Position numbers and translations under genes: made by a program
Source of the DNA: Burkholderia sp. NRF60-BP8
GTDB taxonomy: Bacteria > Pseudomonadota > Gammaproteobacteria > Burkholderiales > Burkholderiaceae
Direction of reading: 5' to 3'
Length of the DNA stretch: 64,000 bases
Assembly: GCF_001522585.2 (NCBI RefSeq)
Contig: NZ_CP013372.1
Location: forward strand, 248,001 to 312,000
Part shown: piece after piece, positions 13,928-37,784 of the stretch
How the letters are laid out: every line of letters begins with the position of its first letter
Position numbering within the stretch: the first letter of the stretch is position 1
Notes under the pieces: model-generated
Seen by the model: the letters and a program-made list of their open reading frames with translations, nothing else
Told to the model about the DNA's origin: nothing
Databases searched by the model: none

Positions 13928-13948
13928 AATAAGCCCAGTCCGATTTAC
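13928..13948. promoter_or_regulatory. Recurrent CCCAGTCYGA motif, copy 3
   Basis: AATAAGCCCAGTCCGATTTA matches the copies at 5124 and 9524 with one change in the core. It lies about 100 bp upstream of the gene starting at 14045. Confidence 0.35.
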
Positions 13949-14044
13949 TCGGGATATCCCCTACGGCGATACTCGAAGCCAATCAATTTACTCACGGGAG
14001 CACGGATTGGCGCGGCGGATGTCGGGCGATCCGTCGTCGACATC

Positions 14045-18417: not shown

Positions 18418-19074
18418 TCACGTGGGATGGGCGCCGAGCCATGTCACGGCGGCCAAAAGCTCGTGCGCGTCGCACCCCAGATTCGTGAACGTCGATCGCG
18501 TGAGTTCGATTGCGCCAATCAGGTAGGCTGGACGACCTGCGGTTTCGACAGTGTTGACGACTTGGAGCGCCAGACCGCAACGCTGGTAAAGTCGTGCCAC
18601 GGCACGTGTCATGGCACCGATGACGCATGTGGCGCCCAGTGACGCGGCGATTGCGAGAATCGAAGGAAACAGCTGCATTCCAGTTGATGCGCGCATGATC
18701 GGGTTTGCCCCGCAGCGGGCGGCAAACCGCGACAGTTCCCAGACCGTGGGTGCGCGTGGCAAGTCTAGAGCCGCTGAAGGCGCGCACAGTGTCTGGAGCA
18801 AATACGGCTGTGTGGTCGGTATCAATCGTGCACACCCGCAAATGTGCTGAGCCTGATCGACCGAGACGACGTGAATCGTACGACCCCGATCAAACTGATC
18901 CCATTCGGTCAGGCTCGTCGCGTCCGCTCCGGGTAACTGCCAACCCAGTCGACCTACAAAGACGTCGTAGCGGAACACGCCGAGGCGGCGATGCATCATG
19001 GTTGGCATGTCGTCGAAACTGCCAGCGAAGATGGATGGCACGATTTTCCCCTCAAACAAAATAGCCGATGCCAC
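18418..19074 (-). CDS. LuxI-family acyl-homoserine-lactone synthase
   Basis: This enzyme makes an acyl-homoserine-lactone signal from S-adenosylmethionine and an acyl donor. The family-invariant residues are present: Arg35, Phe39 and Trp45 (RYDVFVGRLGW), the EWDQFD acidic set (Glu57, Asp59, Asp62), Arg83 in GCARLIPT, and Glu113/Arg116 in VWELSRF. Length is 218 residues if the GTG at 19074 is used. In-frame alternatives are a GTG at 19041 and an ATG at 19008; the latter would remove the usual N-terminal strand. A lux-box-like site lies at 19100-19119. The cognate LuxR-type gene is upstream on the same strand. Acyl-chain length cannot be predicted. Confidence 0.93.
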   Translation of the reverse strand: MASAILFEGKIVPSIFAGSFDDMPTMMHRRLGVFRYDVFVGRLGWQLPGADATSLTEWDQFDRGRTIHVVSVDQAQHICGCARLIPTTQPYLLQTLCAPSAALDLPRAPTVWELSRFAARCGANPIMRASTGMQLFPSILAIAASLGATCVIGAMTRAVARLYQRCGLALQVVNTVETAGRPAYLIGAIELTRSTFTNLGCDAHELLAAVTWLGAHPT

Positions 19075-19099
19075 GCTATCAAGCGCGTGAGGTGAGGGG

Positions 19100-19119
19100 A
19101 ACTAGTTAGGTGGGGAGGT
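19100..19119 (-). promoter_or_regulatory. Lux-box-like operator upstream of luxI-type gene
   Basis: On the minus strand the site reads ACCTCCCCACCTAACTAGTT, with the CT-N12-AG spacing of lux boxes at positions 3-4 and 17-18. It matches the box at 30567-30586 at 14 of 20 positions. If bound LuxR activates from the usual position near -42, transcription would begin around 19067, which favours the GTG at 19041 or the ATG at 19008 as start codon. Confidence 0.6.
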
Positions 19120-19293
19120 GCGACGCCGATGAAGTTGACAGGACGCCCGTAGCGAGTCGCCCTCGCGACGCATGCGATTGTGCGGGCACGCGCGGGTAAG
19201 CCCGAATGTGCTGATGGCGCCACGAGTCCACAATGAGGCCGGTCGATGATGGGGCGGCCGGCAGGAACTGCCGCATACGGTCCTGCTGGCCGC

Positions 19294-20082
19294 TTACACC
19301 TGGATCAAGCCGGTTGTGACGGCATGCACAGCTGCCGCGGTTCGACTGTTGATGCCCAGAATCTTCATCGCTTCGGCGATATGGTAGTCAACGGTATGGG
19401 GCGATATGCCAACAATGGAGGCGATCGCCCATGACGATTTACCCCGGGCAACCCACGCAAGGCACTCTTGTTGGCGCGGGGAGAGTTCAAGCGCCGGCTC
19501 AGGCCGATGGGGCTTCATCAATCGATGGAGCTCTTGATGAAAGAGCGCGCCTATTAAGCTCGCGAGCCGCATGTGGACTTCTGTCTTGATCTCCGGTGAC
19601 GGACTGGCGAGATTCACCAGCAGGATGTCGCCGTTGGTCTCGCGAAGCGGGATACTCACGCCACTGGTTAATCCCGCGTCGCGTGCCTCACCGAGCACGC
19701 GTTGCTCGATGCGATTCAAGCCTCTGATGTCGGCCCATCGATAGGGTGTGGCACGGGCAAACGCCATCCGATGGACCGGATCGACCGGACCGTAGTCTCG
19801 TTGCGCGTAATGGGCGACCCAATGATCCGGATAGCGTGCGCAAAGCGTCTCGACCGCCATCGCGCGGCCGTTTCCCGTGTGTCTTCGTGAGACTCGGCTG
19901 ATGGCAAAGCGTGGGAAGCCCAACGAAGCGGACACGTCACCGAACAACTTCAGCAAAGACGACAGGTCCACGGTATTGAGAAAGGCGGTGGCCAGCGGTA
20001 CCCATCGGCCGGCCAGGCCTGATGTTAAAGGCTGCGGTACGGTGGGTGTGTCACCCGCGCCGCGTTGACAGACTCGATCCAC
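19294..20082 (-). CDS. LuxR-family quorum-sensing regulator
   Basis: The autoinducer domain keeps the ligand-pocket residues of TraR/LasR: Trp and Tyr in HWVAHY, Asp-Pro in PVDPVH, Trp in PYRWADI and the Gly of SGVSIPL. The C-terminal helix-turn-helix is typical (LSPRQQECL, GKSSWAIA, SPHTVDYHI). No ATG fits: the frame stays open to 20337 with a non-coding look. A GTG at 20082 gives 262 residues, a GTG at 19971 gives 225 but would trim the first helix (PLATAFLNTVDLSSLL). I use 20082, with real uncertainty. It probably responds to the signal of the adjacent synthase and acts on the two lux-box-like sites. Confidence 0.88.
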   Translation of the reverse strand: MDRVCQRGAGDTPTVPQPLTSGLAGRWVPLATAFLNTVDLSSLLKLFGDVSASLGFPRFAISRVSRRHTGNGRAMAVETLCARYPDHWVAHYAQRDYGPVDPVHRMAFARATPYRWADIRGLNRIEQRVLGEARDAGLTSGVSIPLRETNGDILLVNLASPSPEIKTEVHMRLASLIGALFHQELHRLMKPHRPEPALELSPRQQECLAWVARGKSSWAIASIVGISPHTVDYHIAEAMKILGINSRTAAAVHAVTTGLIQV

Positions 20083-20374
20083 TGGAGGCCCTCGGAGGAA
20101 CTTCGCGCACTGGTGCGCGGCGCGGTGGCCGGATGTGCGTCGTTTTGGATTGAAGCAGCACAATGCGTGGCGATTGCAGGTGGCGCATGTTCTGCTATTG
20201 ACCAATCGATCGCCATGCAAAAAGCAAGTGTAGTCGCTTGCAGCCGTATCACAGCCATAAAAATGTAATGTTTTGATACATCGACCCGCGCACTCGCGTA
20301 TATCACGTCGATCCGCGGCTGCATGGCATGAGGCCATGGGCTTCCAGGGGCGATCGGGTGTGGAGTGTGCGCAT

Positions 20375-21304
20375 CTAATGAATCAGCAATGCGGCAGCTG
20401 AAAATCCCCCTACGCCCTGCGCATAGAGCACCAAGGGGGCGCCTTGCGCGATTGGGCCGCAGTCAGCCAGGTTGATAAACGGGTCGCTTACGGTAACGTG
20501 TGCGATACGGGAAAAATTGTGCGCGAAAAGGCGCTCGGGTGGCAGACCCATCGATTGGACGAGACGCCGCCACGCAGGCTGATTCAGATGAGGCGGCAAG
20601 ATGCGATCGAGCTCGGAGAGCGCAATGTGTGCATCCTGGGCGACTTTCGTGATGAGCTTTCGCGCGACGAGCTGGTACTGCGCAAGGAAACTCGCTTCGA
20701 CCTGCCCTAGCATTCCGCGCCAGCCGCGACCGCTCGCATGCGTGGCCAGTGCGACGAGGCGATTGGTGCGCGCGTGGCGCTCGATCAACGCGGCGAATGC
20801 GCCGTCGCCGAGCAGCCCTGACGCGCCCATCGCACGTTCGGTCTCCATAGGCATCACGTCCGCCCCGACGAGCAGTACACGATGAACGGCGGGATGAGCG
20901 ATGAACATTGCACGAATGATGCGCAACGCACCGAGCGAGGACGCACAGTGTTGCTGGGCAAACGGGAACGACGGGACGCCTACAAGGCGGAAATACTCGC
21001 ATAGCTGCCGCGGCAAAGACACCGGCGGCGGCGTGATGCTACCCTGCAGCGTGTGAGTGTAGACCAGGCAGTCGATTGACTCGCGGGTGATTGGTGCATT
21101 GCGCAGCAGCGAGTCGACCGCTTGGATCGCGAGGCTGAAGGCACTTTGCCCGCGTGCCACGTGAAAATTGCGTACGCCGGCCTGCTCGAGCTTTGCCACT
21201 ACAGCAGCGGGTTGGCCGGTGCGACGTGCCCAGTGGCGAACGGAGTCGACATGTTCCGGAAGATGGTAGGCGACACACGGGATGCCGATTGTGGTGTCTA
21301 CCAT
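20375..21304 (-). CDS. KAS-III-like condensing enzyme, active type (PqsC-like)
   Basis: A 309-residue thiolase-fold protein of the FabH family. The catalytic set is intact: Cys120 in QQHCASS, His239 in LPPHLNQPAW and Asn263 in AHNFSR. It is the last gene of the long minus-strand operon, and its start overlaps the end of the preceding gene by 7 bp. That preceding gene is a related protein lacking the Cys, so the two resemble the PqsC/PqsB heterodimer that joins an acyl group to a beta-keto substrate in alkylquinolone synthesis. Sequence is closest, within this window, to the protein at 26941-27876 (shared THT-Q, ADV and DPFIN segments). Substrate unknown. Confidence 0.87.
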   Translation of the reverse strand: MVDTTIGIPCVAYHLPEHVDSVRHWARRTGQPAAVVAKLEQAGVRNFHVARGQSAFSLAIQAVDSLLRNAPITRESIDCLVYTHTLQGSITPPPVSLPRQLCEYFRLVGVPSFPFAQQHCASSLGALRIIRAMFIAHPAVHRVLLVGADVMPMETERAMGASGLLGDGAFAALIERHARTNRLVALATHASGRGWRGMLGQVEASFLAQYQLVARKLITKVAQDAHIALSELDRILPPHLNQPAWRRLVQSMGLPPERLFAHNFSRIAHVTVSDPFINLADCGPIAQGAPLVLYAQGVGGFSAAALLIH

Positions 21305-22341
21305 GAGGAGTTCGCGCCAAGGGAGCGCGCGAGCAAAGGCGCACTATGTGCGTCGAGTAGCGCGCAGCCTACGTAGCCGCATGATGCGATATTCCATAGC
21401 AAGACGGTGTGCTGTGATGGGAAGGTATGCGTCTGGGCCATGCTCGTCAATTGTTCGATTGAATCCGCTGCACCGAGATTCGCATCGTGCGTGTGCACGC
21501 CTGCAAGCGAGGCGATGCCGAGTTCCTGCTGCAGTGCAGCTGCAAGCGCATGCGTGTGGCATTGTCCGACGGCGATGACGTCGCACGGGGCAATCGCGTG
21601 TTTTTCGAGCAGCGTGGCGATCAATTGCAGCATCGTTTGAAGTAGACGTGGGTCAGGATGCGCGTGGCGATGCGGCGAGTCGCCGCTTGGTGCCGGACAA
21701 GGATGGGTTTGAGCGTCGATGAGGCGCAAGCCGCGCGTGCTCGCACCAAAGCGTTCCAGAAGGAGGGCGGCGGCTGCGTCCCCTTGCAGTGGGCCCGTTC
21801 CAGTGTGGCGAGAAAACGGTGCCACCCACTTCTCTGCGGCAGCAATCAGGATCGTACGTAGGTCGCGTTCGGCGACGAACAGGTCCTGCGCCAGTCGTAA
21901 GGCCGTGAATGGGGCAGTGCTGCCCTGCTGCGAGATCGAGAACGAAAAACACGGGCTGCGCGGGGCGCCTACAACGCTTGCCAGACGCCCCGCGGTTGTT
22001 GTCGAGATATGTTCGTCAACACTGCTGTGGCAAAAAATGACGACGTCAACCGAGGCGGCAGCGCGAGGCCGAGCGGCACAGATCGCCCGCGTGACATATG
22101 CCGCAAGCCCAGACAGATCGGTGGTGTGGGCGATCGGCGCACGCAGGGACCTCTCCCTCGGACCGATACGAGGCATTGCTGTCGGCCCGAACGGTGTGCA
22201 TTCGGTGCGCCACAAGGCCATCCATGCATCCCAGCCGGTAAGCGGCCTCGTCGTGGTGGGCTCCATGGCCGATACCTGTTCGTCGAGCTTCACGACGGGC
22301 GGCACGTAGGAGCACAGTGCGGTGACGACCGGGGGCATCAT
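21298..22341 (-). CDS. KAS-III-like partner lacking the catalytic cysteine (PqsB-like)
   Basis: A 347-residue thiolase-fold protein. In the segment aligning with QQHCASSLGALR of its partner it reads QQGSTAPFTALR, so Ser141 stands where the nucleophilic Cys should be. A His-rich stretch (GQCHTHALAAAL) and an Asn (DANLGAADS) occupy the later catalytic positions. Loss of the Cys argues for a structural or chain-length-setting role in a heterodimer with the product of the next gene. Adjacent ATGs at 22341 and 22338 both fit; the start overlaps the GNAT gene stop. Confidence 0.8.
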   Translation of the reverse strand: MMPPVVTALCSYVPPVVKLDEQVSAMEPTTTRPLTGWDAWMALWRTECTPFGPTAMPRIGPRERSLRAPIAHTTDLSGLAAYVTRAICAARPRAAASVDVVIFCHSSVDEHISTTTAGRLASVVGAPRSPCFSFSISQQGSTAPFTALRLAQDLFVAERDLRTILIAAAEKWVAPFSRHTGTGPLQGDAAAALLLERFGASTRGLRLIDAQTHPCPAPSGDSPHRHAHPDPRLLQTMLQLIATLLEKHAIAPCDVIAVGQCHTHALAAALQQELGIASLAGVHTHDANLGAADSIEQLTSMAQTHTFPSQHTVLLWNIASCGYVGCALLDAHSAPLLARSLGANSSW

Positions 22342-22931
22342 ATTGGCGTCGGAAAGCTTAGGTCCTGCGGGAGCAGGTCGTAGAGCAGACGTCCCATGCG
22401 TTGGCCGTCGATGACATGGCAATCGCGTTGCAAACCGATAAGGCGAAACCCCAAACGTGCGAGCAGTCGCTGTGATCGAATATTGCGTTGCGCCGCCCAC
22501 GCGCTAATGCAATGCAGTTTATCGCGCTCGAAACCTTCTCGAAGCACCTGTCCCGAAGCTGCGAGTGTTATGTTCGCGCATGCGGCGCGAGTGGGGTCGC
22601 GCAGCACCCAGAAGGAGCCGAGACCAAACCGGTGAGTAACATCGCTGATCGCGACCAGTCCGCTTGGGCGGTTCGTGCCGCGTACGCCAAATACGCGTAG
22701 CCGATGTCGATCACTTTGCGCCATCGCCTGGACCGCCAGTAAGGAAAGCGATTGTCGACCGAGGCCAAAGTCAAACCACTGCGCAATGGCCGGACGCGCA
22801 AGCCAATCGGCGATATCGCGCATATCGTCACAATTTGCTTCGCGCAGCCAGCACTCACGTGGCGACGTCGCGGATCTAACCGAATGGGGTTCGCACGCGC
22901 GGCGATGGCGGGAGCATTGGTGCGCATTCAT
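22338..22931 (-). CDS. GNAT-family N-acetyltransferase
   Basis: A 197-residue protein of the Acetyltransf_3-like (RimJ/RimL) type: REANCDDMRDIADWLARPA at the front, then FGVRGTNRPSGLVAISDV, a beta-bulge region, and ISAWAAQRNIRSQRLLARLGFRLIG near the end, where Asn and Arg contact coenzyme A. It overlaps the genes on both sides by four bases, so it belongs to the same translationally coupled operon. A likely task is N-acylation of an amine made by the PLP decarboxylase step, but this is inferred from context. Confidence 0.83.
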   Translation of the reverse strand: MNAHQCSRHRRACEPHSVRSATSPRECWLREANCDDMRDIADWLARPAIAQWFDFGLGRQSLSLLAVQAMAQSDRHRLRVFGVRGTNRPSGLVAISDVTHRFGLGSFWVLRDPTRAACANITLAASGQVLREGFERDKLHCISAWAAQRNIRSQRLLARLGFRLIGLQRDCHVIDGQRMGRLLYDLLPQDLSFPTPI

Positions 22932-24046
22932 GTCGATGCGCCGCTGTTGGAGTCGGACGTATGTCGATCCGTGAGCTGAGCGAGCGCCGTATCGACACGC
23001 ATGAGCAACATCGCGAACCAATGACATGTCGTCAGGCGCGCCGCGGGCGGTAACCCTGAGACATAGCCGTGTGCGCCGCAAAGTTGAACTAGCTCATGGG
23101 TGAGCTCCATGGATTCGGCTGCAATGTGACGGACCAGCTGGCGCACGAGTGCGGTTGATATGTTCGGCTCGGCAAGCGTGAGCGCACGCAAGAAGAGATG
23201 CGTGCCTTGCGTTGCAATGAGCATGTCGGCCAGCCGCGTGGCCACGCGCTGATGCAGCATGATCGGCTTGCGAAATGCGCGTCGCTCGGCTCCGTAGCGC
23301 AGTGCAAATGCAACGTCGTGCTGCATGGCGCCGCTGAGCAAGGCCGACACGTACAGGGCGATGTTGGTGAGCCATATCTGGGACGGAGAATCACTTTGCG
23401 CGCCACACTGATCGATCGAGGCGAGTGGGGCGGCACACAGTGTGCCGTTGCAGCGCCATTGCTCAAGAGAAAGAGCGCCAAGCACAACGAGGCGGCGGCG
23501 GCATGCCTCAGCATCCCCGTGGGCCGAGTCGATGAGGGCGAGACCGCGGGCGTGCGGTGCGAGCATCAGCGTTGCAACGAGCGCGCAATCTTGATCGTGC
23601 AGATGCCAGAGCGTGGCGGCGTGAAAATCCGGCACCGTAAGCGCGATCGCGCACGTGCCGTTAAAGTAGTCACCGATGGGATGAGGCGCGAGCGCATCGA
23701 GCATGTCGTATGCGCGCAGCGTCATGAGCGCCGGAATGCTCTGAGTGAGTTGCGCGGCGCGTTCAATCGGGCCACAGGCCAACGTGCTTACAATACCGCA
23801 CAGATCGTGCTGGCCAATAGCCATACCGCCCAGGGCCGTCGGCAAAATCATGGTTCCCAGATCCAGCGAGCTTGCATGCGTGACGATATCGCGCCAGCCC
23901 GCTTGCGACGGCGGAGCAGCGAGCAAAGGCTCGAGCTGGTCTCGAGCGAAGCGTTGGCAGGCGGTGACGAGTGCGCGCTGATCGTCAGATATGGCCCATG
24001 TCGGCGGCACCAGATCGGACGATGATGGTATAGGGTTGCGCATCAT
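22928..24046 (-). CDS. Acyl-CoA-dehydrogenase-like protein lacking the catalytic Glu
   Basis: A 372-residue flavoprotein-fold protein: N-terminal helical domain (about 17-120), a short central beta domain, and a C-terminal helical domain with RYGAERRAFRKPIMLHQ and the LCGAHGYV segment. The usual C-terminal EGT segment that supplies the catalytic base is missing: after GYVSGLPP the sequence ends in a divergent helix. The second dehydrogenase of the cluster (29191-30450) does have it, so the two may form a mixed complex, as known for some mycobacterial FadE pairs. The start overlaps nothing; 33 bp separate it from the decarboxylase gene. Confidence 0.78.
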   Translation of the reverse strand: MMRNPIPSSSDLVPPTWAISDDQRALVTACQRFARDQLEPLLAAPPSQAGWRDIVTHASSLDLGTMILPTALGGMAIGQHDLCGIVSTLACGPIERAAQLTQSIPALMTLRAYDMLDALAPHPIGDYFNGTCAIALTVPDFHAATLWHLHDQDCALVATLMLAPHARGLALIDSAHGDAEACRRRLVVLGALSLEQWRCNGTLCAAPLASIDQCGAQSDSPSQIWLTNIALYVSALLSGAMQHDVAFALRYGAERRAFRKPIMLHQRVATRLADMLIATQGTHLFLRALTLAEPNISTALVRQLVRHIAAESMELTHELVQLCGAHGYVSGLPPAARLTTCHWFAMLLMRVDTALAQLTDRHTSDSNSGAST

Positions 24047-24079
24047 GGCTCTCTCCGTATTGGGTGTGAGTCATCGGTG

Positions 24080-25288
24080 TCAGACGAGCATCTCGATTGC
24101 TTCGGGATGGCTGAGGAAATCCCTGGGACTTGCCGAGCGCGCGTAGGCACCCGATTGCAGAACGACAACGAAGTCACCAATCTGAGCTTTGGGGAGCAGC
24201 ACGTCGTCGACGATGCGATCAAGCGGAGTGCACGAGCAGCCGACGATGTGACATCGCTCAGTTGGTGTATCGCCGAGCCGATTGCCGAGTACCACGGGGA
24301 AATTGCGGCGCAGTATCTGCCCGAAGTTGCCCGAGGCCGCGAGGTGGTGGTGCAGGCCGCCGTCGGTGACAAGGAAGGTGGTGCCGCGTGAAACTTTTCG
24401 ATCGATGACGCGGCATACATAGGCACCGGCCTCGCCGACCAGGTAGCGCCCGAATTCGAGCACGGGGCGCACACCGGGCAAAGCGCGTTGCATGCGCGAG
24501 AGCCAAGTGTGCATTGGCTGGGCGACGGCATCGAGATCGAGCGGCACTTCGCCTTCGAAATAGGGAATGCCAAAACCGCCGCCCAGATTCACGTACCGGG
24601 GCGGCAGTGGCAAATCGGATGCGAGCTTCATGACGAGCTCGGCACTGCGCCGCTGTGCTTCGACGATGGTAGCCGGGTGCAGGCACTGCGAACCCCAGAA
24701 GACGTGAAAGCCCGCCAGTGTCAGGTCACATGTGCCCAGTTCTTGCAGTAGTGCCGGGACCTGTTCGGTGTCGATGCCGAATTGAGTTGCTCCCCCACCC
24801 ATGCGCATGCCGGCATGCGTTATCTGAAAATCCGGGTTCACGCGAATTGTCACGTTCGGGCGCAGGCCCAGCTCCCAGCCAAGGGCTGCCACCAGATGCA
24901 GTTGGGTGAGCGATTCGATGTGCACGTTCACGCCGCTGGCCACTGCACACCGTAGCTCCTCACGTGTTTTGCCCGGACCTGCAAAGCCGATCTGATCAGG
25001 CGGCATGCCTGCGTTGAGTGCCGATGCCAACTCGGCGCCGGAGGCCACGTCAAAGCCGTCGATTCGCGTGGCCAGATGGTGTACGACAGCAGGCATTGGG
25101 TTGGCCTTGATCGAGTAATGCAACTGTATCGACGCTGGCAGTTTTGCACGCAACTGGCACACGCGGGCATCGATTGCGGCGCGCGCATAGACGAAAAACG
25201 GTGTGGAACCTGCACGATTGGCAAGCCGTGTGACATCGATACTGTCGGCGAACAGGACGTCATGGCGGCGGGTCAATGATCGATTCAT
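24080..25288 (-). CDS. PLP-dependent decarboxylase, alanine-racemase fold (BtrK/DapDC-like)
   Basis: A 402-residue type III PLP enzyme. Lys61 in YSIKANP would form the Schiff base; glycine-rich phosphate-binding GGGFG, the HVFWGSQ loop, and the C-terminal VGCSCTPLD and GAYARSAS segments are all present. The CxC-type motif replaces the CDS of diaminopimelate decarboxylase, as in carrier-protein-linked decarboxylases such as BtrK and the exosortase-associated group (TIGR03099). The start overlaps the ligase gene stop by four bases, which links it to amino-acid loading. It probably decarboxylates an aminoacyl-ACP; the amino acid is unknown. Confidence 0.87.
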   Translation of the reverse strand: MNRSLTRRHDVLFADSIDVTRLANRAGSTPFFVYARAAIDARVCQLRAKLPASIQLHYSIKANPMPAVVHHLATRIDGFDVASGAELASALNAGMPPDQIGFAGPGKTREELRCAVASGVNVHIESLTQLHLVAALGWELGLRPNVTIRVNPDFQITHAGMRMGGGATQFGIDTEQVPALLQELGTCDLTLAGFHVFWGSQCLHPATIVEAQRRSAELVMKLASDLPLPPRYVNLGGGFGIPYFEGEVPLDLDAVAQPMHTWLSRMQRALPGVRPVLEFGRYLVGEAGAYVCRVIDRKVSRGTTFLVTDGGLHHHLAASGNFGQILRRNFPVVLGNRLGDTPTERCHIVGCSCTPLDRIVDDVLLPKAQIGDFVVVLQSGAYARSASPRDFLSHPEAIEMLV

Positions 25289-26895
25289 ATTGGCCTCGCT
25301 TCGTTGTTCGGCGCGCTCACGAGTGTGTCTCGCAAGGCTACGCGATCGAATTTGCCGTTGGCATTGCGCGGGATGTCCGTCTGAACGATGATGCGATGCG
25401 GCACCATGTAGCTGGGCAGGCGTTGCTTGCACCACGACAGCAGCGTTCGGGCGAGAAACGGCGTGACTGCCGGCACGACGACCAGCGTGATCGTCTCGCC
25501 GAGCGCATCATCGGGTACACCCACGGCAGCGACTTCGGAAACAAGACCACTTTCGTGGATGATTTCCTCGATTTCTTCCGGGCTAATCCGGTAGCCGGAA
25601 CTCTTGATTTGCGCGTCGTTGCGCGCAATGAAATACAGAAAGCCGTGCGCATCGCGTCGCACGAGGTCCCCAGACCAGACTGCGGTATCTGGCGCAGCCC
25701 CGCCAGGTTTATGCTCGGGCGAGGGACGATAGCGTTCAGAGGTTCGCGCTGCATCACCCCAGTAGCCCATCGTGACGCACGCGCCGACGTGTACAAGTTC
25801 GCCGGGTTCGTCAGGCGCACACGGCGAACCATCGGGGCGCACGACCAAGATGCGTGCATTGGGCACGGCCTTGCCGATCGAGTCAGGGCGGTGATCGACT
25901 TCGGCGGGGTCGAGGTAGGTCGAGCGGAACGCCTCGGTTAGACCATACATGAGGTAGGGTTTGGCATGTGGAAACAGCGCACGCAGGCCTTGCAGTACTG
26001 CCCTGGGCATGCGGCCACCGGTATTGGCAAAGTAGCGCAGCGTGGCGCGCGCGGCATCGGGCCAGCAAGCATGGGCCAGTTGCATCCACAATGGGGGCAC
26101 GCCCGTGATCGCGGTGATGTGCTCACGCGCGCAGGCCTCTATCACGTCTTGTGGGCAGAGGTAATTGACAAGGACAACGGTGGCGCCGCTTGCCCAGGCC
26201 GACGTGAGTTGGCTCAGGCCTGCATCGAAGCTAAGCGGTAGTACGGCCAGGATTCGATCGGCGTGCGTATGGTTCAGATAATGAGCGACGCTCCATGCCC
26301 CCTCGAGCAGGTTGCGGTGACTGAGCATGACGCCCTTGGGTCGTCCCGTCGAGCCGGATGTATAGAGAATGGCCGCGAGGTCCGTGTCAATGCCTGATGT
26401 CGGGACATCGGATGCTTTTCGTTGCGTGTCGATAGCCGCCCGAGCGAAGCATTCGCTCCAACGATGGACCCGTGCAGTCCCGTCGTATGTAGGTGCCATT
26501 TCATCGGGAGCATCTGTGAGGATCGTATGGGTGAGGGCGGGCGGCCCGTTCTCGGCTAGCAAGCGTGCACGCGTTGCGCTGGTAATCAGGCAGATCGCGC
26601 CGCAGTCGTGCAGGATATGTGCGACCTGTTGCGGTTTGAGCAGCGGATTGATCGGCACAAAAACGCAGCCTGCGGCGGCAATACCCAGCAGCGACACGAC
26701 GGTTTCGATGCGCTTTTCCAGAAAGATGCCGATACGTGCGCCAGGCGCGATGCCGAGCGAGGCGATCGCGTCGCCAAGTGCACATGCGCGCTCGGCAAGT
26801 TCCTGGTAGCTCAGGCGGATATCCCCGAATACGACCGCGTGCGAATCGGGTGCCTGATGTGCGGTTGCCAGCACGAGGTCAAGTATGTTTCGCAT
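25285..26895 (-). CDS. AMP-forming acyl/aminoacyl ligase (TIGR03098-like)
   Basis: A 536-residue ANL-superfamily enzyme with the P-loop LYTSGSTGRPKGVMLSH, YLMYGLTEAFRSTYL, the GDLVRRDAHG core and a C-terminal NANGKFDR Lys segment. The motif FVPINPLLKPQQVAHIL is characteristic of the ligases described in exosortase systems, where they also neighbour a PLP decarboxylase and an ACP. Here no exosortase is present. It likely activates an amino acid and loads it on the free ACP encoded at 28882-29160, since the enzyme has no carrier domain of its own. The start follows the KAS gene by 45 bp. Confidence 0.9.
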   Translation of the reverse strand: MRNILDLVLATAHQAPDSHAVVFGDIRLSYQELAERACALGDAIASLGIAPGARIGIFLEKRIETVVSLLGIAAAGCVFVPINPLLKPQQVAHILHDCGAICLITSATRARLLAENGPPALTHTILTDAPDEMAPTYDGTARVHRWSECFARAAIDTQRKASDVPTSGIDTDLAAILYTSGSTGRPKGVMLSHRNLLEGAWSVAHYLNHTHADRILAVLPLSFDAGLSQLTSAWASGATVVLVNYLCPQDVIEACAREHITAITGVPPLWMQLAHACWPDAARATLRYFANTGGRMPRAVLQGLRALFPHAKPYLMYGLTEAFRSTYLDPAEVDHRPDSIGKAVPNARILVVRPDGSPCAPDEPGELVHVGACVTMGYWGDAARTSERYRPSPEHKPGGAAPDTAVWSGDLVRRDAHGFLYFIARNDAQIKSSGYRISPEEIEEIIHESGLVSEVAAVGVPDDALGETITLVVVPAVTPFLARTLLSWCKQRLPSYMVPHRIIVQTDIPRNANGKFDRVALRDTLVSAPNNEARPI

Positions 26896-26940
26896 GGTGT
26901 GGAATGGCGTCGTCGGGTTGAGGAAGTTGCTCGGTGTTCG

Positions 26941-27876
26941 TCAATGACGAATCACCAGGGCGCCGAAGCAGCCGGCCATACCACTAGAAAAAAGCAACGA
27001 CCATTCACCGGCCTGCTGGTTGCGACAGGTCTCGAAATTGATGAACGGATCCGCACCGAATGCGTGGCCGACCGTGCCGAAATTCGCGATGAATAGCCGC
27101 GCCTCGGGAATGGTGAGCATTCCCATCAACCGTGCCCAGCCGGGGAGATTGACGTGGTGAGGCAATACGTGCGCGATGTCATCCGGTGCGATGTTTGCCT
27201 GACGAATAGCTGCGCGCATGGTGGTAAAGGCCGACCAGTAGTACCGATCGTCGGGAATCGGCTGCAAAGTGTCGTCCGTCCCGCGAAAGAAGCGCGCATC
27301 GGTATATAGATGCAAGCTGGCGATGACGTTGTGTCCGGCCCCTCGTTCAAGTAGCAACGCGCATGCGCCGTCGCTATGCAGCGCCAGGTCCCCAATCGCA
27401 CGAAGTCGATCGCAGCCCGAACCAATGACGTCCGCACACACGATGATGGCGCGCTCGATAGTGGGGTATCGCGCCGCAAGCGCAAGCAGTATCCGGATGG
27501 CTGCCATCGGAGACACGCACTGCTGCTGCGTGACGGAGAACGTCAATGCCCGGTTCAGTCCGCAATGGCGTTGAATGTAATGGGCTGTACTGGCAGGTGG
27601 CGCGAGCGCGCTCGTCTGTATCGTATGCGTGTGAATGAGGGCATCGACTGTTGAGCGCGGTGTGGCGGTTTCGCGCAAAAGTGTCGTGATAGCACGTACG
27701 GCCAGATTTGCTGGGGACCCACCCTCGGCGTCGTGGAACTGCCCCACACCGTGATCGCGTAGCGCACGAGCGCTCGCGTCAGACAGACCGCAACGTTCGA
27801 CCCACTGATTTACGTGTACGGTTTGAGCCGGCAGACTGTGGGCGACCGCGGAAAGTGAGAAGGGACTCGTTCTCAT
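26941..27876 (-). CDS. KAS-III-like condensing enzyme, active type (second copy)
   Basis: A 311-residue FabH-family protein with an intact catalytic set: Cys120 in QQQCVSP, His241 in LPHHVNLPGW and Asn265 in IANFGTVGHAFGADPFIN. The start at 27876 overlaps the preceding gene by four bases (ATGA). The preceding gene again encodes a Cys-less relative, repeating the arrangement at 20375-22341. Identity with the first active copy is visible over the whole length but low, so the duplication is old or the two pairs were specialised for different substrates. Confidence 0.87.
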   Translation of the reverse strand: MRTSPFSLSAVAHSLPAQTVHVNQWVERCGLSDASARALRDHGVGQFHDAEGGSPANLAVRAITTLLRETATPRSTVDALIHTHTIQTSALAPPASTAHYIQRHCGLNRALTFSVTQQQCVSPMAAIRILLALAARYPTIERAIIVCADVIGSGCDRLRAIGDLALHSDGACALLLERGAGHNVIASLHLYTDARFFRGTDDTLQPIPDDRYYWSAFTTMRAAIRQANIAPDDIAHVLPHHVNLPGWARLMGMLTIPEARLFIANFGTVGHAFGADPFINFETCRNQQAGEWSLLFSSGMAGCFGALVIRH

Positions 27877-28898
27877 AATGGTGCTTCGCAGAATTGAAGA
27901 ATCGCACAGGCGACTTGGCCGTGAAATCCCGTAGACCATACAAGCAGATGTTGGCCATCGCGAGGCGAAACAGCCCGCGTGAGGCTATCAAGACGCGCAG
28001 GTGTGTGTGCTGCGCAAAGGTGGCCGGGCGTGTCATCTGCGAGCCAGATGCGCTCAAGCGGCAAGTCACCGTGCGCACAGATACTGCGCAATAGTCGGTT
28101 ATCCGTCTTCGCTGGGACAATCCAGTCCATTTGTGTGGCCTGACAGGCAGCTCGTGCCAGCGCCTTGTTGATGGCGCCGATAAGCGTGGCGGAATCGACA
28201 GGCGTTGCGATGACGCTGGAGCTGCTGGGCGTGGCCGGCGTACAGATGGTCAGGCCGCGCACGCGCCAGCCAGGTGTCGGATGGCGTGTGAGGAGAGCGG
28301 CAGCGGCTCCATCGGCGAGGCGCGTGTGTAAGTCAACGTACCGAGAAAAGGGCGGAAGCCAGCGCTCGGCCGCGACAATCAGGACGGTATTGAACTCGGT
28401 GTCCGCATCCATCATGGCTAGCGTCAGATCGAGCGCCGTTGCAAACGAGACGTCCTGAAGCTGCCCGATCGCGAATGGCGGGCGACGCGATGCAAGCTCG
28501 TGATGCAAACGTCCCGCACAGGACAATGCCAGATCGTGTTCGAAGCTGGTCGAGCAAACGATGATTTGGTCTGGCCGGGGAAGTTGTGAGGCACCGTCAT
28601 ACAACAGGCGTGCCGCGCGTAGTGCCATGTCGGACAGTGAAAGAGTCGACTCGGCTACGACGAGCTCGTCTGAAGGCGTAGGCGGCGAAGGCGCCTTTGG
28701 AGCGCGTTGGGGATCACATTCGTTACGCCAGCGCAGTGTATCGCTATAGACCGCTTGCATCACGGAATCAAGCGGGCATTGCCACAGTGGCGAGCTCACG
28801 TCGGTGCGTATAGGGTGCGCGCTGCGTGCGAATGGGATGTACTGAGCGGTCGCGACGATCCTGGGCGCCGGAACCCAGGACTCAGTTCGAGGGAACAT
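27873..28898 (-). CDS. KAS-III-like partner lacking the catalytic cysteine (second copy)
   Basis: A 341-residue thiolase-fold protein. The segment aligning with the active-site loop reads QLQDVSFATALDL, so Asp149 replaces the Cys. The AAERWLPPFSRYVDLHTRLADGAAAALL segment strongly resembles that of the other Cys-less protein (AAEKWVAPFSRHTG then GDAAAALLL), showing that the two inactive proteins are paralogous. It overlaps the end of the ACP gene by 17 bp and the start of its active partner by four, so the pair is made together. Confidence 0.8.
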   Translation of the reverse strand: MFPRTESWVPAPRIVATAQYIPFARSAHPIRTDVSSPLWQCPLDSVMQAVYSDTLRWRNECDPQRAPKAPSPPTPSDELVVAESTLSLSDMALRAARLLYDGASQLPRPDQIIVCSTSFEHDLALSCAGRLHHELASRRPPFAIGQLQDVSFATALDLTLAMMDADTEFNTVLIVAAERWLPPFSRYVDLHTRLADGAAAALLTRHPTPGWRVRGLTICTPATPSSSSVIATPVDSATLIGAINKALARAACQATQMDWIVPAKTDNRLLRSICAHGDLPLERIWLADDTPGHLCAAHTPARLDSLTRAVSPRDGQHLLVWSTGFHGQVACAILQFCEAPL

Positions 28899-29160
28899 GG
28901 GAGGCGACGAATGTAACCAGGTTTTCGAATCGCAGGAAGAGGTCGCTGCTCAGGTCTTCAGGGTCAAGCACAAACTTGAAGCGCTGCTCCACTTGCAGCA
29001 GGAGCTCGGTCATGTTCATCGAATCGACACCAATGTCGAAGAGGTTTGTGTCGTCCTCGATGAGCTCGGTGCTCAGATGCGTGCCGAGCGTTGACAGCAG
29101 ACAGGATTTGAGCGCGGTAGCAATATCGTCAGGGCGATTTGATACGGAATTGGATGTCAT
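28882..29160 (-). CDS. Acyl carrier protein
   Basis: A 92-residue free-standing carrier with Ser47 in FDIGVDSMNMTELL as the phosphopantetheine site. Acidic helix II follows (LLLQVEQRFKFVLDPEDL). A GGAGACG ribosome site precedes the ATG at 29160; the longer frame to 29184 is less likely. It is placed second in the operon and presumably carries the aminoacyl or acyl intermediates for the ligase, decarboxylase, dehydrogenases and condensing enzymes. A phosphopantetheinyl transferase is not encoded nearby. Confidence 0.92.
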   Translation of the reverse strand: MTSNSVSNRPDDIATALKSCLLSTLGTHLSTELIEDDTNLFDIGVDSMNMTELLLQVEQRFKFVLDPEDLSSDLFLRFENLVTFVASHVPSN

Positions 29161-29190
29161 GAACGTCTCCGGTATGAAGGGCAAGTGAGG

Positions 29191-30450
29191 TCATGCACGC
29201 GGCAACGCGGCTGAATGCGCAAGCGCGTCTGAGGTGGATTCCCACGGCAATTGCGGCGCGCGTAGGGCAGCGCTGGCGATCATCAGCCGCTGCATGTCGC
29301 CGGTACCTTCCATGATGTCGAACGCCTTGGCGTCTCGGCAGCATTGTTCGAGCGATGGACAATGCGCGATACCGCCGAGTCCAACGAGTGCGAGTGCGGT
29401 TCGAGTGACATGGGCTGTCGCGCGTGCGGCGTATGCCTTGGCCATCGAGGCATGCATGGCGCTCGGATGGCCCTGATCTGCGAGCCATGCTGCGTGATGA
29501 CAGAGCAGGCGCGCGGTCGTGATATGCCGATCGAGATCCAAAAGATGCACGTCGACGTCGCCGGGACTCCATCGCAGGTCGGCCGGATGTGAGCCCGATT
29601 CGAAATAGGTTGTGAGTTCGTCACGTACCCGTCGACACGTGCCGACCATCACTGCGGAGAGCAGCGGCCGAAAATAGTCCCATGACCGTTGCGCGCCGGA
29701 AAACGCATCGCTCAATGGCGCTTGGTCGTCGCGCGTGAGGCAAGCATCGTCAGGCACTTCGCAATCGCTGTACGACAGCACGGCCAGTTGGCTGGCCCGC
29801 AGCCCGGCCATATGTTCGACACGCATGACCGAGAACCCCGGGGCGTTGTGCTCGACGCGAAATGCCCGGATGCCGAAGCGGCCCGCGTTGCGGTTGATCG
29901 TTGCGAACGTGATGATCGTGTTCGCGCGCGCGCCGTTCGTGATGAAACATTTGGTGCCATTGAGCACCCAGCCGTGCGCGGTTTTGCGGGCCGACGTCCG
30001 CATGGCTGTTGCGTCGGACCCGCAATCGGGCTCCGTAATCGCAAATGCACCCCAGCGTGGCGCGTCGCTGTGAAAGCTCGCGAAGAATGCGGCCTGCTGT
30101 CGTTCGTTGGCGAGCGCGATAACCGGGGGCATGGCAAGTCCTGGGCCGGGCAGAGCCAGCGCGAGCGCGGCGTCCGCGTAGCCCAAATATTCCATCAGCA
30201 TCACGCGTGAGGTGAGCGATTGCACCCCGGGACATCCCCCGTATTGGCTCGGCACGAGATTCAGGTTCAAAGCACGGACCGTATCGCCTTGCCAGAACGT
30301 TGCGGGAATTTGTCCGGTACGGTTCGCTTCGTCGCGATGTGCGCGTATTTGCGCGCACAGTCGATCGAGGTCCAGCCCGGCGGCTGCCAGGGCCGCCTTA
30401 AGCGTTGCGACTTCATGGCGCGGATGTGGTATTTGCAGAGCGTCTGGCAT
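29191..30450 (-). CDS. Acyl-CoA dehydrogenase, catalytically complete
   Basis: The first gene of the operon, 419 residues from the ATG at 30450. It shows the flavin-binding FAITEPDCGSDATAMRTSA, the substrate-loop FITNGARANT, and the C-terminal AFDIMEGTGDMQRL with the catalytic Glu. It could desaturate an ACP-bound aminoacyl chain, as PltE and related enzymes do for prolyl carriers, or an ordinary acyl chain. Upstream in-frame ATGs at 30507 and 30549 exist; 30450 is preferred since transcription from the box at 30567-30586 would begin near 30534 and the protein would start where the family usually does. Confidence 0.88.
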   Translation of the reverse strand: MPDALQIPHPRHEVATLKAALAAAGLDLDRLCAQIRAHRDEANRTGQIPATFWQGDTVRALNLNLVPSQYGGCPGVQSLTSRVMLMEYLGYADAALALALPGPGLAMPPVIALANERQQAAFFASFHSDAPRWGAFAITEPDCGSDATAMRTSARKTAHGWVLNGTKCFITNGARANTIITFATINRNAGRFGIRAFRVEHNAPGFSVMRVEHMAGLRASQLAVLSYSDCEVPDDACLTRDDQAPLSDAFSGAQRSWDYFRPLLSAVMVGTCRRVRDELTTYFESGSHPADLRWSPGDVDVHLLDLDRHITTARLLCHHAAWLADQGHPSAMHASMAKAYAARATAHVTRTALALVGLGGIAHCPSLEQCCRDAKAFDIMEGTGDMQRLMIASAALRAPQLPWESTSDALAHSAALPRA

Positions 30451-30566
30451 GTCCGATCGTTCCGAATGGCGCACGCGCGCCGGCCGATGGCTTGGCATGG
30501 ACGACATGCTCGCGCGGCGTCCATACCGTGTGCCATGCAGCGTAGGCATCTGTGGGAAGGTTTGCT

Positions 30567-30586
30567 ACCTCCCAACCTAGGGAGGG
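30567..30586. promoter_or_regulatory. Lux-box-like operator at the head of the biosynthetic operon
   Basis: The site reads ACCTCCCAACCTAGGGAGGG on the plus strand, with CT-N12-AG spacing and a clear dyad (CCTCCC at 30568-30573, GGGAGG at 30580-30585). It lies 117 bp upstream of the operon's first ATG at 30450 and 105 bp upstream of the divergent GntR gene, so it could serve either side. It resembles the box before the luxI-type gene. Confidence 0.65.
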
Positions 30587-30690: not shown

Positions 30691-31524
30691 ATGGCAGGAC
30701 GACAACGGACGACGCGTAAAACGCAATCTATGCCGCCGGACAAACGCGGCCCACGTACGACCAAGCGAGGCGATCAGGTGGCCGAGCTGATCAAGGGCTG
30801 GATTAACGACGGGCGGGTGCGTCCGGGCAAGCGCCTGAACAAGGAAGCTGAGCTACAGCAGATGTTCAACGTGAGCCGGGGCTCGATGCGCGATGCGCTC
30901 AAGGCGCTGGAAGTGCAGGGACTCGTGAGTCTCAGTACCGGCCCCGAGGGAGGCGCCACAATTACGCGTGTGCCGCTGGCGCGAGCGTTCCAAGCACTGC
31001 AGAACTATTTGTTCTTCGAGAACGTCACGCTCGAGGAGCTTTATGCGGTGCGACGCACGCTCGAGCCGATTGTCGCTGCGGGCGCAGTAGAGCACTTGAC
31101 AGATGCAGATTTCGAAGCACTCGAGCGCAGCATTTCAGTGTGCGAGCCGTTTGTGGCCGGCCACGAGCAGGCGCTCGATCAGCGCTGCGAGGATATTCAT
31201 TTTCACGACGTGCTGGCCGCGGCTCATCCGAACGCGTTTTTGCGGTGCCTTTGCCGGATCATCAATCAGATGCTGCACTCGCTGGTGATCGTGGCGGGCA
31301 ACGTCACGCAGCGTGACTATCAGGCGTTCGGCCGTACGACGCTCGCTGCGCACCGGGCAATCCTCGAGGCTGCACGGCGGCGCGACGCTCAGGCAGTGGA
31401 GCGCTTGATGGCCGCGCATATGGACGAGGCTGAGGCGCAACTGCGGAAAGTACATGCCGCGTTGAAGCAAAAGCTTGTGCTCGACTCCGAACTTGATACG
31501 CAGATGAGCCGCGACGCGTCCTGA
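30691..31524 (+). CDS. GntR-family regulator with FCD ligand domain (FadR subfamily)
   Basis: A 277-residue repressor-type protein. The winged helix is at about 28-95 (VAELIKGWINDGRVRPGKRL, FNVSRGSMRDALKALEVQGLV) and the all-helical FCD domain at about 115-255, with the metal-binding His and Asp positions present (DIHFHDVLAAAHPN, AHRAILEAARRRD). It is divergent from the biosynthetic operon and upstream of the XRE and importer genes. Candidate targets are the amidase/ABC importer operon, where such regulators are common, or the biosynthetic operon. Sequence alone cannot decide. Confidence 0.9.
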   Translation: MAGRQRTTRKTQSMPPDKRGPRTTKRGDQVAELIKGWINDGRVRPGKRLNKEAELQQMFNVSRGSMRDALKALEVQGLVSLSTGPEGGATITRVPLARAFQALQNYLFFENVTLEELYAVRRTLEPIVAAGAVEHLTDADFEALERSISVCEPFVAGHEQALDQRCEDIHFHDVLAAAHPNAFLRCLCRIINQMLHSLVIVAGNVTQRDYQAFGRTTLAAHRAILEAARRRDAQAVERLMAAHMDEAEAQLRKVHAALKQKLVLDSELDTQMSRDAS

Positions 31525-31918: not shown

Positions 31919-32200
31919 TCATAGTTGTTGTTTGTGTGAGGCCGACGGGATCTGGCGAAGATCTGCTCGAGTCTCTGCTGCTCTAACCAATTGCGAGAGA
32001 GAGGTGTCGAGGGCCGCAGCAAGCGCAAGCAGAGCGTCGATCTTGGGGGCTATTTGGGCACGCTCGACCAAAGAGATCGTGTTCGGATGGACGTTGGCCC
32101 GCGTCGCGAGGCCCACTTGGGTGAGCCTCTTTGTTTGGCGACGTGTGCGAACTTCGTCTCCGAGGGCCTTGATAAAGTGCGCGGTGGTTGTGCTATTCAC
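31919..32200 (-). CDS. Small XRE-family transcriptional regulator (third of three)
   Basis: A 93-residue Cro/CI-type helix-turn-helix protein: GDEVRTRRQTKRLTQVGLATRANVHPNTISLVERAQIAP holds the DNA-binding helices, followed by a helix for dimerisation. It lacks the FSASARVNQYE recognition segment shared by the two XRE proteins upstream, so it probably reads another site. It starts 16 bp after the preceding XRE gene stop and is likely co-transcribed with it. Confidence 0.82.
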   Translation of the reverse strand: MNSTTTAHFIKALGDEVRTRRQTKRLTQVGLATRANVHPNTISLVERAQIAPKIDALLALAAALDTSLSQLVRAAETRADLRQIPSASHKQQL

Positions 32201-32216
32201 CGACGGGAGTGACGGG

Positions 32217-32543
32217 CTATTCTTGCGCGAGCGATTCTGCCGCGGCGACTAGGGCCCGCTTCTTTTCTTTGCTCAGTCGCCCAGCAATTAAGAGAAGGTT
32301 GGCCAGCAAGTCGTCCTCCTCGTACAGGAAGCTTGTCGGAATGAGAAGCGCTCGGGCAAGCCGCTGACTGGTCTGTACGGTTGGAGCATGCTTGCCCTTC
32401 TCGTACTGGTTGACGCGAGCGCTGGCGGAAAATTCATCGATGCCAGCCAGAATGCCAAGCTGTTCCTGGGTGAGGTCGGTACGCAACCGTGCCTGCTTCA
32501 GGCGTTTCGAAAACACAGAGGTGACGGTCGAGTCGCTGGACAT
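32217..32543 (-). CDS. XRE-family regulator, paralogue B
   Basis: A 108-residue helix-turn-helix protein. The region FSKRLKQARLRTDLTQEQLG then GIDEFSASARVNQYEKGKHAPT is almost identical to that of the protein encoded just upstream, so the two should bind the same sequence. The second half (IPTSFLYEEDDLLANLLLIAGRL) is a helical dimer segment. An operator palindrome sits 34 bp before its start codon. No signs of a peptidase or toxin partner. Confidence 0.88.
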   Translation of the reverse strand: MSSDSTVTSVFSKRLKQARLRTDLTQEQLGILAGIDEFSASARVNQYEKGKHAPTVQTSQRLARALLIPTSFLYEEDDLLANLLLIAGRLSKEKKRALVAAAESLAQE

Positions 32544-32577
32544 GCATCAAGTGTCCAGGAATCGATTGCCCGGTTTG

Positions 32578-32592
32578 CTAAGTAAATCTTAG
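32578..32592. promoter_or_regulatory. CTAAG-N5-CTTAG operator upstream of XRE gene B
   Basis: CTAAGTAAATCTTAG, a perfect 5+5 bp dyad with a 5-nt AT-rich centre. It lies between the two XRE paralogues and has the same form as three sites at 32948-33018. Confidence 0.75.
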
Positions 32593-32610
32593 TCATGGCA
32601 TTGTCGGGAA

Positions 32611-32946
32611 TCAGGAGGCGGCGGTTCGTGACAGTCGCTCGGCGTATTCGAGAAGTGCTTCTAGGCTGTCCTGCGGTAGCGGTGCGGCCACGACGAGAAG
32701 CCGCGCAAGGAGGTCATTGCTTTCATATAGGAAGCTGGTCGGGACGTGCAGTACTCGGGCGAGACGGTGGGCCGTCTGGAGCTTGGGTGCGTGTTTGCCG
32801 GTCTCGTACTGATTCACGCGTGCGCTCGCCGAGAATTCATCAATCCCGGCTTCGATGCCGAGCTGTTCCTGGCTCAGGCCCGAGCGTAGACGGGCCTCTC
32901 TGAGGCGCTTGGGAAAGATCGAGGATGTCGATGAGGTCCGACGCAT
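32611..32946 (-). CDS. XRE-family regulator, paralogue A
   Basis: A 111-residue helix-turn-helix protein, paralogous to the downstream gene: FPKRLREARLRSGLSQEQLG, GIDEFSASARVNQYETGKHAPK, then VPTSFLYESNDLLARLLVVAA. It is divergent from the importer operon, and three copies of the operator palindrome fill the space between them. The simplest reading is a repressor that controls itself and the importer genes, possibly in competition with paralogue B. Confidence 0.88.
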   Translation of the reverse strand: MRRTSSTSSIFPKRLREARLRSGLSQEQLGIEAGIDEFSASARVNQYETGKHAPKLQTAHRLARVLHVPTSFLYESNDLLARLLVVAAPLPQDSLEALLEYAERLSRTAAS

Positions 32947-33018: not shown

Positions 33019-33127
33019 TCTGGGTGGCGACATGCGTCAGCTCTGTGTCGTCTTGGTGGGCTTCGCTGTCACGTGCCTAGCGCGGGCTGGGTGGGTTCGG
33101 CGGTCATTGAATACAGGATTTGGAGTA

Positions 33128-34003: not shown

Positions 34004-34007
34004 GGCA

Positions 34008-37732: not shown

Positions 37733-37784
37733 AGCGGTCACGACATCCCGTCATTACTTTGTCTATATCACTAAGGAGTGCGAT

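Follow-up and report, generated by a model that had tools for sequence, protein, structure and literature searches.

The stretch of DNA analysed here, called the window below, comprises 64,000 nucleotides of contig NZ_CP013372.1 of Burkholderia sp. NRF60-BP8 and contains ten minus-strand genes that form a single tight operon adjoining a luxR-luxI pair. A sequence-only reading had placed these genes in the window, and all ten were confirmed with respect to coordinates, strand and family, with luxR and luxI downstream (Table 1). They encode two proteins resembling acyl-CoA dehydrogenases (ACAD1 and ACAD2), a free acyl carrier protein (ACP), an adenylating ligase, a pyridoxal phosphate (PLP)-dependent decarboxylase, a GNAT acyltransferase and two pairs of proteins resembling β-ketoacyl-ACP synthase III (KAS-III), in each of which we denote the Cys-bearing protein as KC and its partner, Cys-less in the window, as KB. 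The start codons of the operon genes (the upper coordinates in Table 1) were chosen by overlap; six of the nine junctions are overlapping (by 17, 4, 4, 4, 4 and 7 bases) and three are gapped (30, 45 and 33 bases), so that four-base overlaps, said earlier to join most neighbours, are found at only four of them. The ligase and the decarboxylase score above the NCBIfam cut-offs for TIGR03098 and TIGR03099, respectively. KB2 has no match in Pfam and its family was assigned via NCBIfam and a profile search of solved structures, which rules out the possibility that it is an unrelated protein. LuxI matches PF00765 at 58.5 bits (cut-off 24), while in the luxR open reading frame (ORF) the PF03472 match starts only at residue 128, and the true start of the gene is probably downstream of 20337.

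Table 1. Genes and sites of the operon and its surroundings (window coordinates)
Feature	Coordinates	Strand	Description
luxI	18418-19074	-	LuxI-type synthase of N-acyl homoserine lactone (AHL), XenI2-like; PF00765
lux-type box ACCTCCCCACCTAACTAGTT	19100-19119	-	upstream of luxI; lines up with boxes conserved at other loci
luxR	ORF 19294-20337	-	PF03472 and PF00196
KC2	20375-21304	-	second KAS-III-like protein, predicted acyltransferase; Cys120/His269/Asp274
KB2	21298-22341	-	second KAS-III-like partner; without active-site Cys in the window
GNAT N-acyltransferase	22338-22931	-	PF13302
ACAD2	22928-24046	-	divergent ACAD-like partner without C-terminal EGT Glu
Decarboxylase	24080-25288	-	PLP enzyme, BtrK-like; TIGR03099
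Ligase	25285-26895	-	adenylating, TIGR03098; code DASGNGMRSK; predicted activation of the L-Asp side chain
KC1	26941-27876	-	KAS-III-like protein, predicted acyltransferase; Cys120/His271/Asp276
KB1	27873-28898	-	KAS-III-like partner without active-site Cys
ACP	28882-29160	-	free acyl carrier protein; PF00550
ACAD1	29191-30450	-	ACAD-like flavoenzyme with catalytic-type Glu (EGT); PF00441/PF02770/PF02771
TACGCT, -10-like	30539-30544	-	conserved; 35 bp from palindrome centre
20-bp lux-type palindrome CCCTCCCTAGGTTGGGAGGT	30567-30586	-	operon promoter, between the GntR gene and ACAD1
GntR/FCD regulator	30691-31524	+	divergent from the operon and co-inherited with it
Uptake arm	33032-40832	+	two permeases of the LIV/urea type, two ATPases (one by Pfam, one by eye), UrtA-like binding protein, amidase, PF06684 protein, porin

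A scan of genome contigs with the KC1 alignment yielded 31 loci, 27 of them in Burkholderia, Paraburkholderia, Caballeronia, Trinickia and Pararobbsia, and four in the Comamonadaceae (Mitsuaria, Pelomonas, Roseateles and Paracidovorax). All ten genes are present in identical order in 24 of the 27 Burkholderiaceae loci, and the remaining three (L037, L050 and L053) stop at contig edges, so the gene set is a conserved system, well beyond what chance would produce. Three of the 24 complete loci carry broken genes: in L034 (B. cenocepacia NCTC13227) the decarboxylase gene is interrupted by ~2.5 kb of intervening DNA (13119-15584), in L059 ACAD1 is in two pieces, and in L058, a metagenome assembly, the ligase contains an in-frame stop. 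The nearest record in a plasmid collection, NZ_CP091013.1, matches at 98.4% across the entire 13.6 kb. The four Comamonadaceae loci (L060-L063) represent a variant, in which the remaining genes keep the operon order, the place of KB2 matched KB1 at 28% in L063, and ACAD1 is located after luxI in the two loci with enough sequence. They also possess an additional gene of ~1.4 kb between KC1 and the ligase, which is a MATE transporter in both copies run against Pfam, hinting at export of the product. The luxR and luxI genes are found downstream in 26 of the 27 loci with enough sequence past KC2 (L034, L037, L050 and L053 have too little and were left out); in L042 neither is present within the 3.4 kb covered. 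At the family level, KC1 is carried by 23 of 398 Burkholderiaceae genomes (E 1e-60), or ~6%, and at an identity of at least 65% by 10 of 65 Burkholderia genomes. The counts of conserved residues given below for ACAD1, the ACP, the KC proteins, the ligase, the decarboxylase and LuxI refer to alignment rows from which proteins shorter than 70% of the window protein (60% for LuxI) were excluded; row counts are not fully independent, as L038 and L058 share one KC1, and L046 and L047 are alike in their identities.

The promoter of the operon contains a lux-type palindrome followed by a -10-like element. The palindrome ranked top in all 26 sequences compared (the window and 25 loci, a set that excludes L059, L050 and the Comamonadaceae) by a leave-one-out matrix, which had been built from sites initially picked with a consensus pattern and was scored with the site itself and identical sites excluded and near relatives kept. 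All matrix matches of at least 14 bits in 568,158 bases, both strands included, fall in promoters of the operon (30) or of luxI (9). The motif CCTACGCT follows the operon box in 24 of the 26 sequences, the centre of TACGCT lying 34-36 bp from that of the palindrome, which is close to the spacing in LuxR-activated promoters. A related box is visible in the aligned luxI promoters of the window and 22 loci, L057 being without one there, and it reaches at least 14 bits in 9 of the 26 sequences. Nine residues that we take to be the conserved LuxI-type positions are retained in all 27 luxI rows. Control of the operon by quorum sensing, in line with the sequence-only reading, is supported by this promoter box.

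Paraburkholderia xenovorans LB400 possesses two luxI genes; the first is on its second contig, and the other is the neighbour of the operon on chromosome 3 (locus L052). The XenI2/R2 system, reported to make and answer 3-hydroxy-C8-homoserine lactone and to be repressed by the orphan LuxR protein BxeR, has been placed on chromosome 3 of this strain (PMC3742214), and by elimination the luxI gene of L052 is xenI2. The window LuxI is 43% identical to the LB400 copy. XenI2 has been also reported in P. graminis C4D1M and P. phytofirmans PsJN (PMC3742214); the former strain corresponds to locus L059, where the operon is present, and the latter is not among the 31 loci.

At positions that we take to be those of the adenylation-domain code, placed by motif, the ligase is identical to AfcQ in 10 of 10 residues, and it exhibits an acidic-amino-acid pocket of the AfcQ/VinN type (Arg331 of VinN). 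The Arg of the code is conserved in all 31 rows, among which the interrupted copy of L058 is not counted. The comparison was made with the genome's own afc locus, which lies separately on contig C3 (L070/L071) and encodes a KC-like AfcO, AfcP, AfcQ and a KB-like AfcR consecutively; the right genes were used, because Arg311 and Lys503 of AfcQ, Cys111 of AfcL and Ser40 of AfcK sit at the numbers published for the AFC enzymes. The operon ligase is 48% identical to this AfcQ and 47% to the BolO ligase of a likely bol locus (genome G014). A likely BolO, like the AfcQ of B. arboris, also scores above the TIGR03098 cut-off. In the biosynthesis of AFC-BC11, AfcQ has been reported to activate L-Asp in vitro, with AfcK carrying the Asp and AfcP decarboxylating it on the carrier (PMC12186527). 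The same logic has been proposed for the bolagladins, where deletion of the dehydrogenase gene bolQ led to β-alanine in place of dehydro-β-alanine (PMC7756342). The closest match of the operon decarboxylase among solved structures is BtrK (E 1.6e-68); its PLP-site residues are conserved, including the PLP Lys in 30 of 31 rows (the exception being the split copy of L034), and the carrier Ser47 of the ACP is conserved in 32 of 32 rows. Since the ligase code is that of the L-Asp-activating AfcQ and the decarboxylase is BtrK-like, the ACP should carry β-alanine. The earlier suggestion that an amino acid is loaded on the free ACP and then decarboxylated is supported by the BtrK-like enzyme and by the TIGR03098 and TIGR03099 matches.

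Beyond the operon, 29 TIGR03098 ligases from class-level genomes (L081-L108 and L110) display the code DYSANGMRSK or a close one and keep the Arg of AfcQ; a decarboxylase match accompanies 24 of the 29. These ligase/decarboxylase pairs may also make ω-aminoacyl-ACP.

The KC proteins possess an active-site Cys and a [G/A]H-x4-D motif, invariant in 32 of 32 KC1 rows and 29 of 29 KC2 rows, and they lack the Cys-His-Asn triad of FabH: the position of its Asn is occupied by His in all these rows (those of KC2 placed via KC1), followed by the invariant Asp five residues on. The His-x4-Asp pattern is common to KC1, KC2, AfcO and AfcL, and by alignment a putative Cys/His/Asp triad, of the kind in ChlB3/CerJ-type acyltransferases, can be placed in the KC proteins. 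According to the AFC paper, AfcL and AfcO have a Cys/His/Asp triad, and the KAS-III-like AfcL picks up the β-alanyl chain and transfers it to an amine (PMC12186527); the His and Asp in question were placed by alignment. In joint KC/KB alignments the Cys column holds no Cys in any of the 14 KB1 rows and in 12 of the 14 KB2 rows, so that adjacent Cys-bearing and Cys-less subunits, as in PqsBC, are found at both positions of the operon, with the exception of KB2 in two Comamonadaceae loci.

In an unrooted tree of the pairs, a branch supported at 99/99 separates KB1, KB2, AfcR and its bol relative from KC1, KC2 and AfcO. The Comamonadaceae are represented in it by rows of L060 and L062 only, the placement of AfcL is unsafe (branch length 6.66), and the labels BolPlike and BolMlike are probably swapped, as Ser is assigned to BolM and Thr to BolP in the bolagladin paper (PMC7756342). 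Because the tree splits all KB proteins with AfcR from all KC proteins with AfcO, the KC/KB pair looks older than its own duplication, with AfcO/AfcR as the single-pair form. As for solved structures, the closest relatives of KC1 in the PDB are 7vyu (NatS) and PqsC, and the best profile match of KB2 is ChlB3. The structures nearest to the predicted KB1 model include ChlB3, NatS, DpsC and CerJ, with PqsBC slightly lower (Z difference 2.6). This model has a mean predicted local distance difference test score of 70, with residues 16-84 below 50, entries less than 1 Z apart count as ties, and FabH entries come first when Foldseek results are ranked by E-value; the preference for ChlB3 over PqsBC is therefore only a lean. 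Amide formation seems likelier for the KAS-III-like pairs than carbon-carbon condensation, because they cluster with AfcO/AfcR and their Cys/His/Asp-type signature is also that of the acyltransferase AfcL. Of the two condensing heterodimers postulated in the sequence-only reading, the two Cys-bearing/Cys-less KAS-III-like pairs stand, and the condensing role is not supported, given the missing FabH triad and the grouping with AfcO/AfcR.

A similar division is seen between the two ACAD-like proteins. The EGT Glu of ACAD1 is conserved in 27 of 27 rows (short copies in L059, L062 and L063 excluded), and the C-terminal EGT is absent from ACAD2 in all 15 rows, one of which (L045) has an EGT mid-sequence; the predicted model of ACAD2 nevertheless exhibits the ACAD fold. 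An oxidation step, also part of the original proposal, is rendered plausible by the Pfam ACAD families and the catalytic-type Glu of ACAD1. The operon thus comprises three cases of an intact protein next to a degenerate relative (KC/KB twice and ACAD1/ACAD2), which suggests heteromers of intact and degenerate partners.

We propose that the operon is a LuxR/AHL-controlled biosynthetic unit for a small amide derived from β-alanine or dehydro-β-alanine, and we put the probability of this reading at roughly 60%. From the computed gene set, its conservation, the ligase code, the active-site patterns, the pair phylogeny, the promoter boxes and the co-inheritance, we infer the substrate, the order of steps, the heteromers and the class of product as follows. 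The LuxR protein with its AHL would bind the 20-bp box and turn the operon on, the related box driving luxI. The ligase would adenylate the side-chain carboxylate of L-Asp and load it on the ACP, and the BtrK-like decarboxylase would strip the α-carboxylate to give β-alanyl-ACP; loading of several units by the ligase, as by AfcQ, is possible. Acylation of the amine would fall to the GNAT protein or to one KAS-III-like pair, and ACAD1 would introduce a double bond, with ACAD2 probably as a non-catalytic partner. The second KC/KB pair would then take the acyl chain on its Cys and pass it to a nucleophile, thereby releasing the product.

Several observations weigh against this proposal. The decarboxylase shares only 27% identity with AfcP, against 44-55% with TIGR03098-linked relatives with no known substrate, and its closest relative in the PDB is a Glu-specific enzyme; an acidic amino acid other than Asp could therefore be the one used. 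A fatty acyl-AMP ligase (FAAL) of the afc type, a thioesterase and a nonribosomal peptide synthetase (NRPS) are all absent among the ten operon genes, and ACAD1 finds no match at E 1e-3 among the ORFs of the afc and bol stretches that were fetched. In the KC proteins, the position of the FabH His remains His in 28 of 32 KC1 rows and 17 of 29 KC2 rows, the choice of the catalytic His and Asp comes from alignment alone, and PqsC is among the PDB matches of KC1. Two KB2 rows, those of the Comamonadaceae loci L060 and L062, place a Cys in the Cys column (one column away in another alignment), and the second pair of the same two loci joins the AfcO/AfcR-like rows, apart from the second pair of the Burkholderiaceae, which indicates that the pair may have been exchanged. 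Finally, the luxI box of the window scores 3.6 bits on the operon-box matrix. Shuffling that stretch 200 times gave a median of 0.4, a 95% point of 9.3 and a maximum of 14.0, so the score falls short of the 95% point and the assignment of the box depends on position and alignment.

Among the alternatives, the one closest to the original interpretation is that the pairs are PqsBC-like condensing enzymes that make carbon-carbon bonds, leading to a nitrogen-containing ketone or heterocycle. We regard it as unlikely and rejected it as the leading model: the Cys/H-x4-D pattern, with His at the Asn position of FabH, and the grouping of the pairs with AfcO/AfcR speak against it, as does the rank of the acyltransferase ChlB3 above PqsBC for the KB1 model, small as the difference in Z is, and neither a malonyl-loading nor a reductive gene is found among the ten. 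An improbable variant of the amide scheme would keep its logic and start from another acidic amino acid, for instance L-Glu, to yield 4-aminobutyryl-ACP; it agrees with BtrK, which acts on glutamyl-ACP, being the closest solved decarboxylase, but is at odds with a ligase code identical to that of the Asp-activating AfcQ.

The names of the NCBIfam families suggest yet another role, in which the trio feeds an aminoacyl group to an exosortase/exopolysaccharide system. Both operon proteins pass the cut-offs of these exosortase-A-associated families, and an RNA-seq paper on LB400 suggested, in a passage that mentions no mutant, that exopolysaccharide excretion is potentially under xenI2/xenR2 (PMC10902836). 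However, an AfcQ and a likely BolO pass TIGR03098 as well, Tyr occupies code position 236 in 26 of the 29 class-level TIGR03098 relatives where the operon ligase has Ala, and the whole genome contains no exosortase (PF09721), for which reason we discarded this link and consider the role highly improbable. The β-alanine-derived amide remains our preferred product.

In terms of known systems, the operon works like the core of afc and bol, yet it is not an afc cluster. With afc of the Burkholderia cepacia complex, as reported for AFC-BC11 (PMC12186527), it shares the ligase with an identical code, a free ACP, a PLP decarboxylase, a Cys-bearing/Cys-less pair of KAS-III-like proteins (AfcO/AfcR), an acyltransferase with GH-x4-D (AfcL) and a proposed dehydrogenase step. 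It differs in that the FAAL AfcA, the citrate synthase AfcS, the O-methyltransferase AfcT and a glycosyltransferase are absent among the ten genes (the rest of the window was scanned in part), that it has two adjacent KC/KB pairs whereas AfcO and AfcR are split by AfcP-AfcQ, and that it adjoins luxRI. The idea that it is afc under another name was rejected, given the genome's own afc locus on C3 and the low identity of the decarboxylase to AfcP. The bol cluster of Burkholderia gladioli likewise contains a ligase (BolO), a decarboxylase (BolN), an ACP (BolC), an ACAD (BolQ) and two KAS-III-like proteins, but its products are handed to a tetramodular NRPS, and Ser or Thr replaces the Cys in its KAS-III-like proteins (PMC7756342); the operon shares neither feature. 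PqsBC of alkylquinolone synthesis in Pseudomonas resembles the operon in its adjacent Cys-bearing and Cys-less KAS-III-like proteins; as differences, the operon pairs are closer to AfcO/AfcR, there are two of them, their active-site pattern departs from that of FabH, and no anthranilate genes occur among the ten. No ten-gene cluster with two pairs, a GNAT protein, two ACADs and luxRI was found described among the papers listed in searches of open-licence PubMed Central literature, as far as titles, abstracts and excerpts show, so the claim that no described pathway has this set holds for the whole set within these searches; its core is common to afc and bol.

The operon suggests that ~6% of the Burkholderiaceae genomes sampled encode small amides of a new family. 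XenI2/XenR2 was published as a signalling pair, with no biosynthetic target named in the excerpted text of the paper (PMC3742214). Owing to the LuxR-type box in its promoter, also present at luxI in some of the loci, the operon is a concrete candidate for a direct target of this second AHL system of plant-associated Paraburkholderia. The prediction that KAS-III-like proteins act as pairs in amide formation also bears on AfcO and AfcR, whose exact roles have been left open in the AFC paper (PMC12186527).

Clusters of a related composition were noticed elsewhere. Plasmid loci of Rahnella (L073), Streptomyces (L074) and Agrobacterium vitis (L075) contain KC-like proteins together with an ACP and acyl-CoA dehydrogenases, the latter two loci with a BtrK-like decarboxylase as well, and with the operon they make up a wider family of such clusters. 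Further sets of ligase, decarboxylase and KAS-III-like proteins are present, in addition to the operon itself, in the Burkholderia genome G047 (C157 22000-41999, L068, and C66 101000-120999, L069).

On the opposite strand, divergent from the operon, lie the GntR gene and the uptake arm. KC1, GntR (at least 79% identity) and the first permease (at least 81%) are distributed identically across 65 Burkholderia genomes, all three being present in 10 and absent from the rest; co-occurrence within the arm was followed for GntR and the first permease only, and in three of the ten genomes the permease match contains one internal TGA. The association of KC1 with GntR has a Fisher p of 5.6e-12, uncorrected for relatedness. 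Among 398 genomes of the family, GntR is present in 24 and KC1 in 23, all 23 having GntR as well, and the single GntR-only genome (G286, L111 9276-12781) retains the importer arm, luxR, luxI and pieces of ACAD1 and KC2, i.e. it is a remnant of the operon. A second amidase gene adjoins GntR in 25 of the 27 Burkholderiaceae loci; none is found there in the window.

One explanation is that the arm is a mere neighbour in the same genomic block with no functional tie to the operon, to which we assign a little less than even odds. The Comamonadaceae loci, where the operon and luxRI occur without the arm in the flank covered, and the result of the matrix scan, in which no lux-type box of at least 9 bits was found at the arm in the window, are in agreement with it, and the exact co-occurrence and the remnant in the only exception are not. 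A doubtful but possible connection would be a closed circuit, in which the AHL switch drives synthesis of the amide, while the co-inherited urea/amide-type importer, the amidase or amidases and GntR recapture, degrade and sense the same compound. The amide would then be a second, degradable signal or a public good layered on AHL quorum sensing, and heteromeric KAS-III-like amide synthases, as part of such a circuit, would also account for AfcO/AfcR and for their counterparts in bol. Three small regulators of the XRE type are encoded in the window between GntR and the importer (31919-32946), and XRE-like genes were seen by eye near the importer in L038 and L052 as well.

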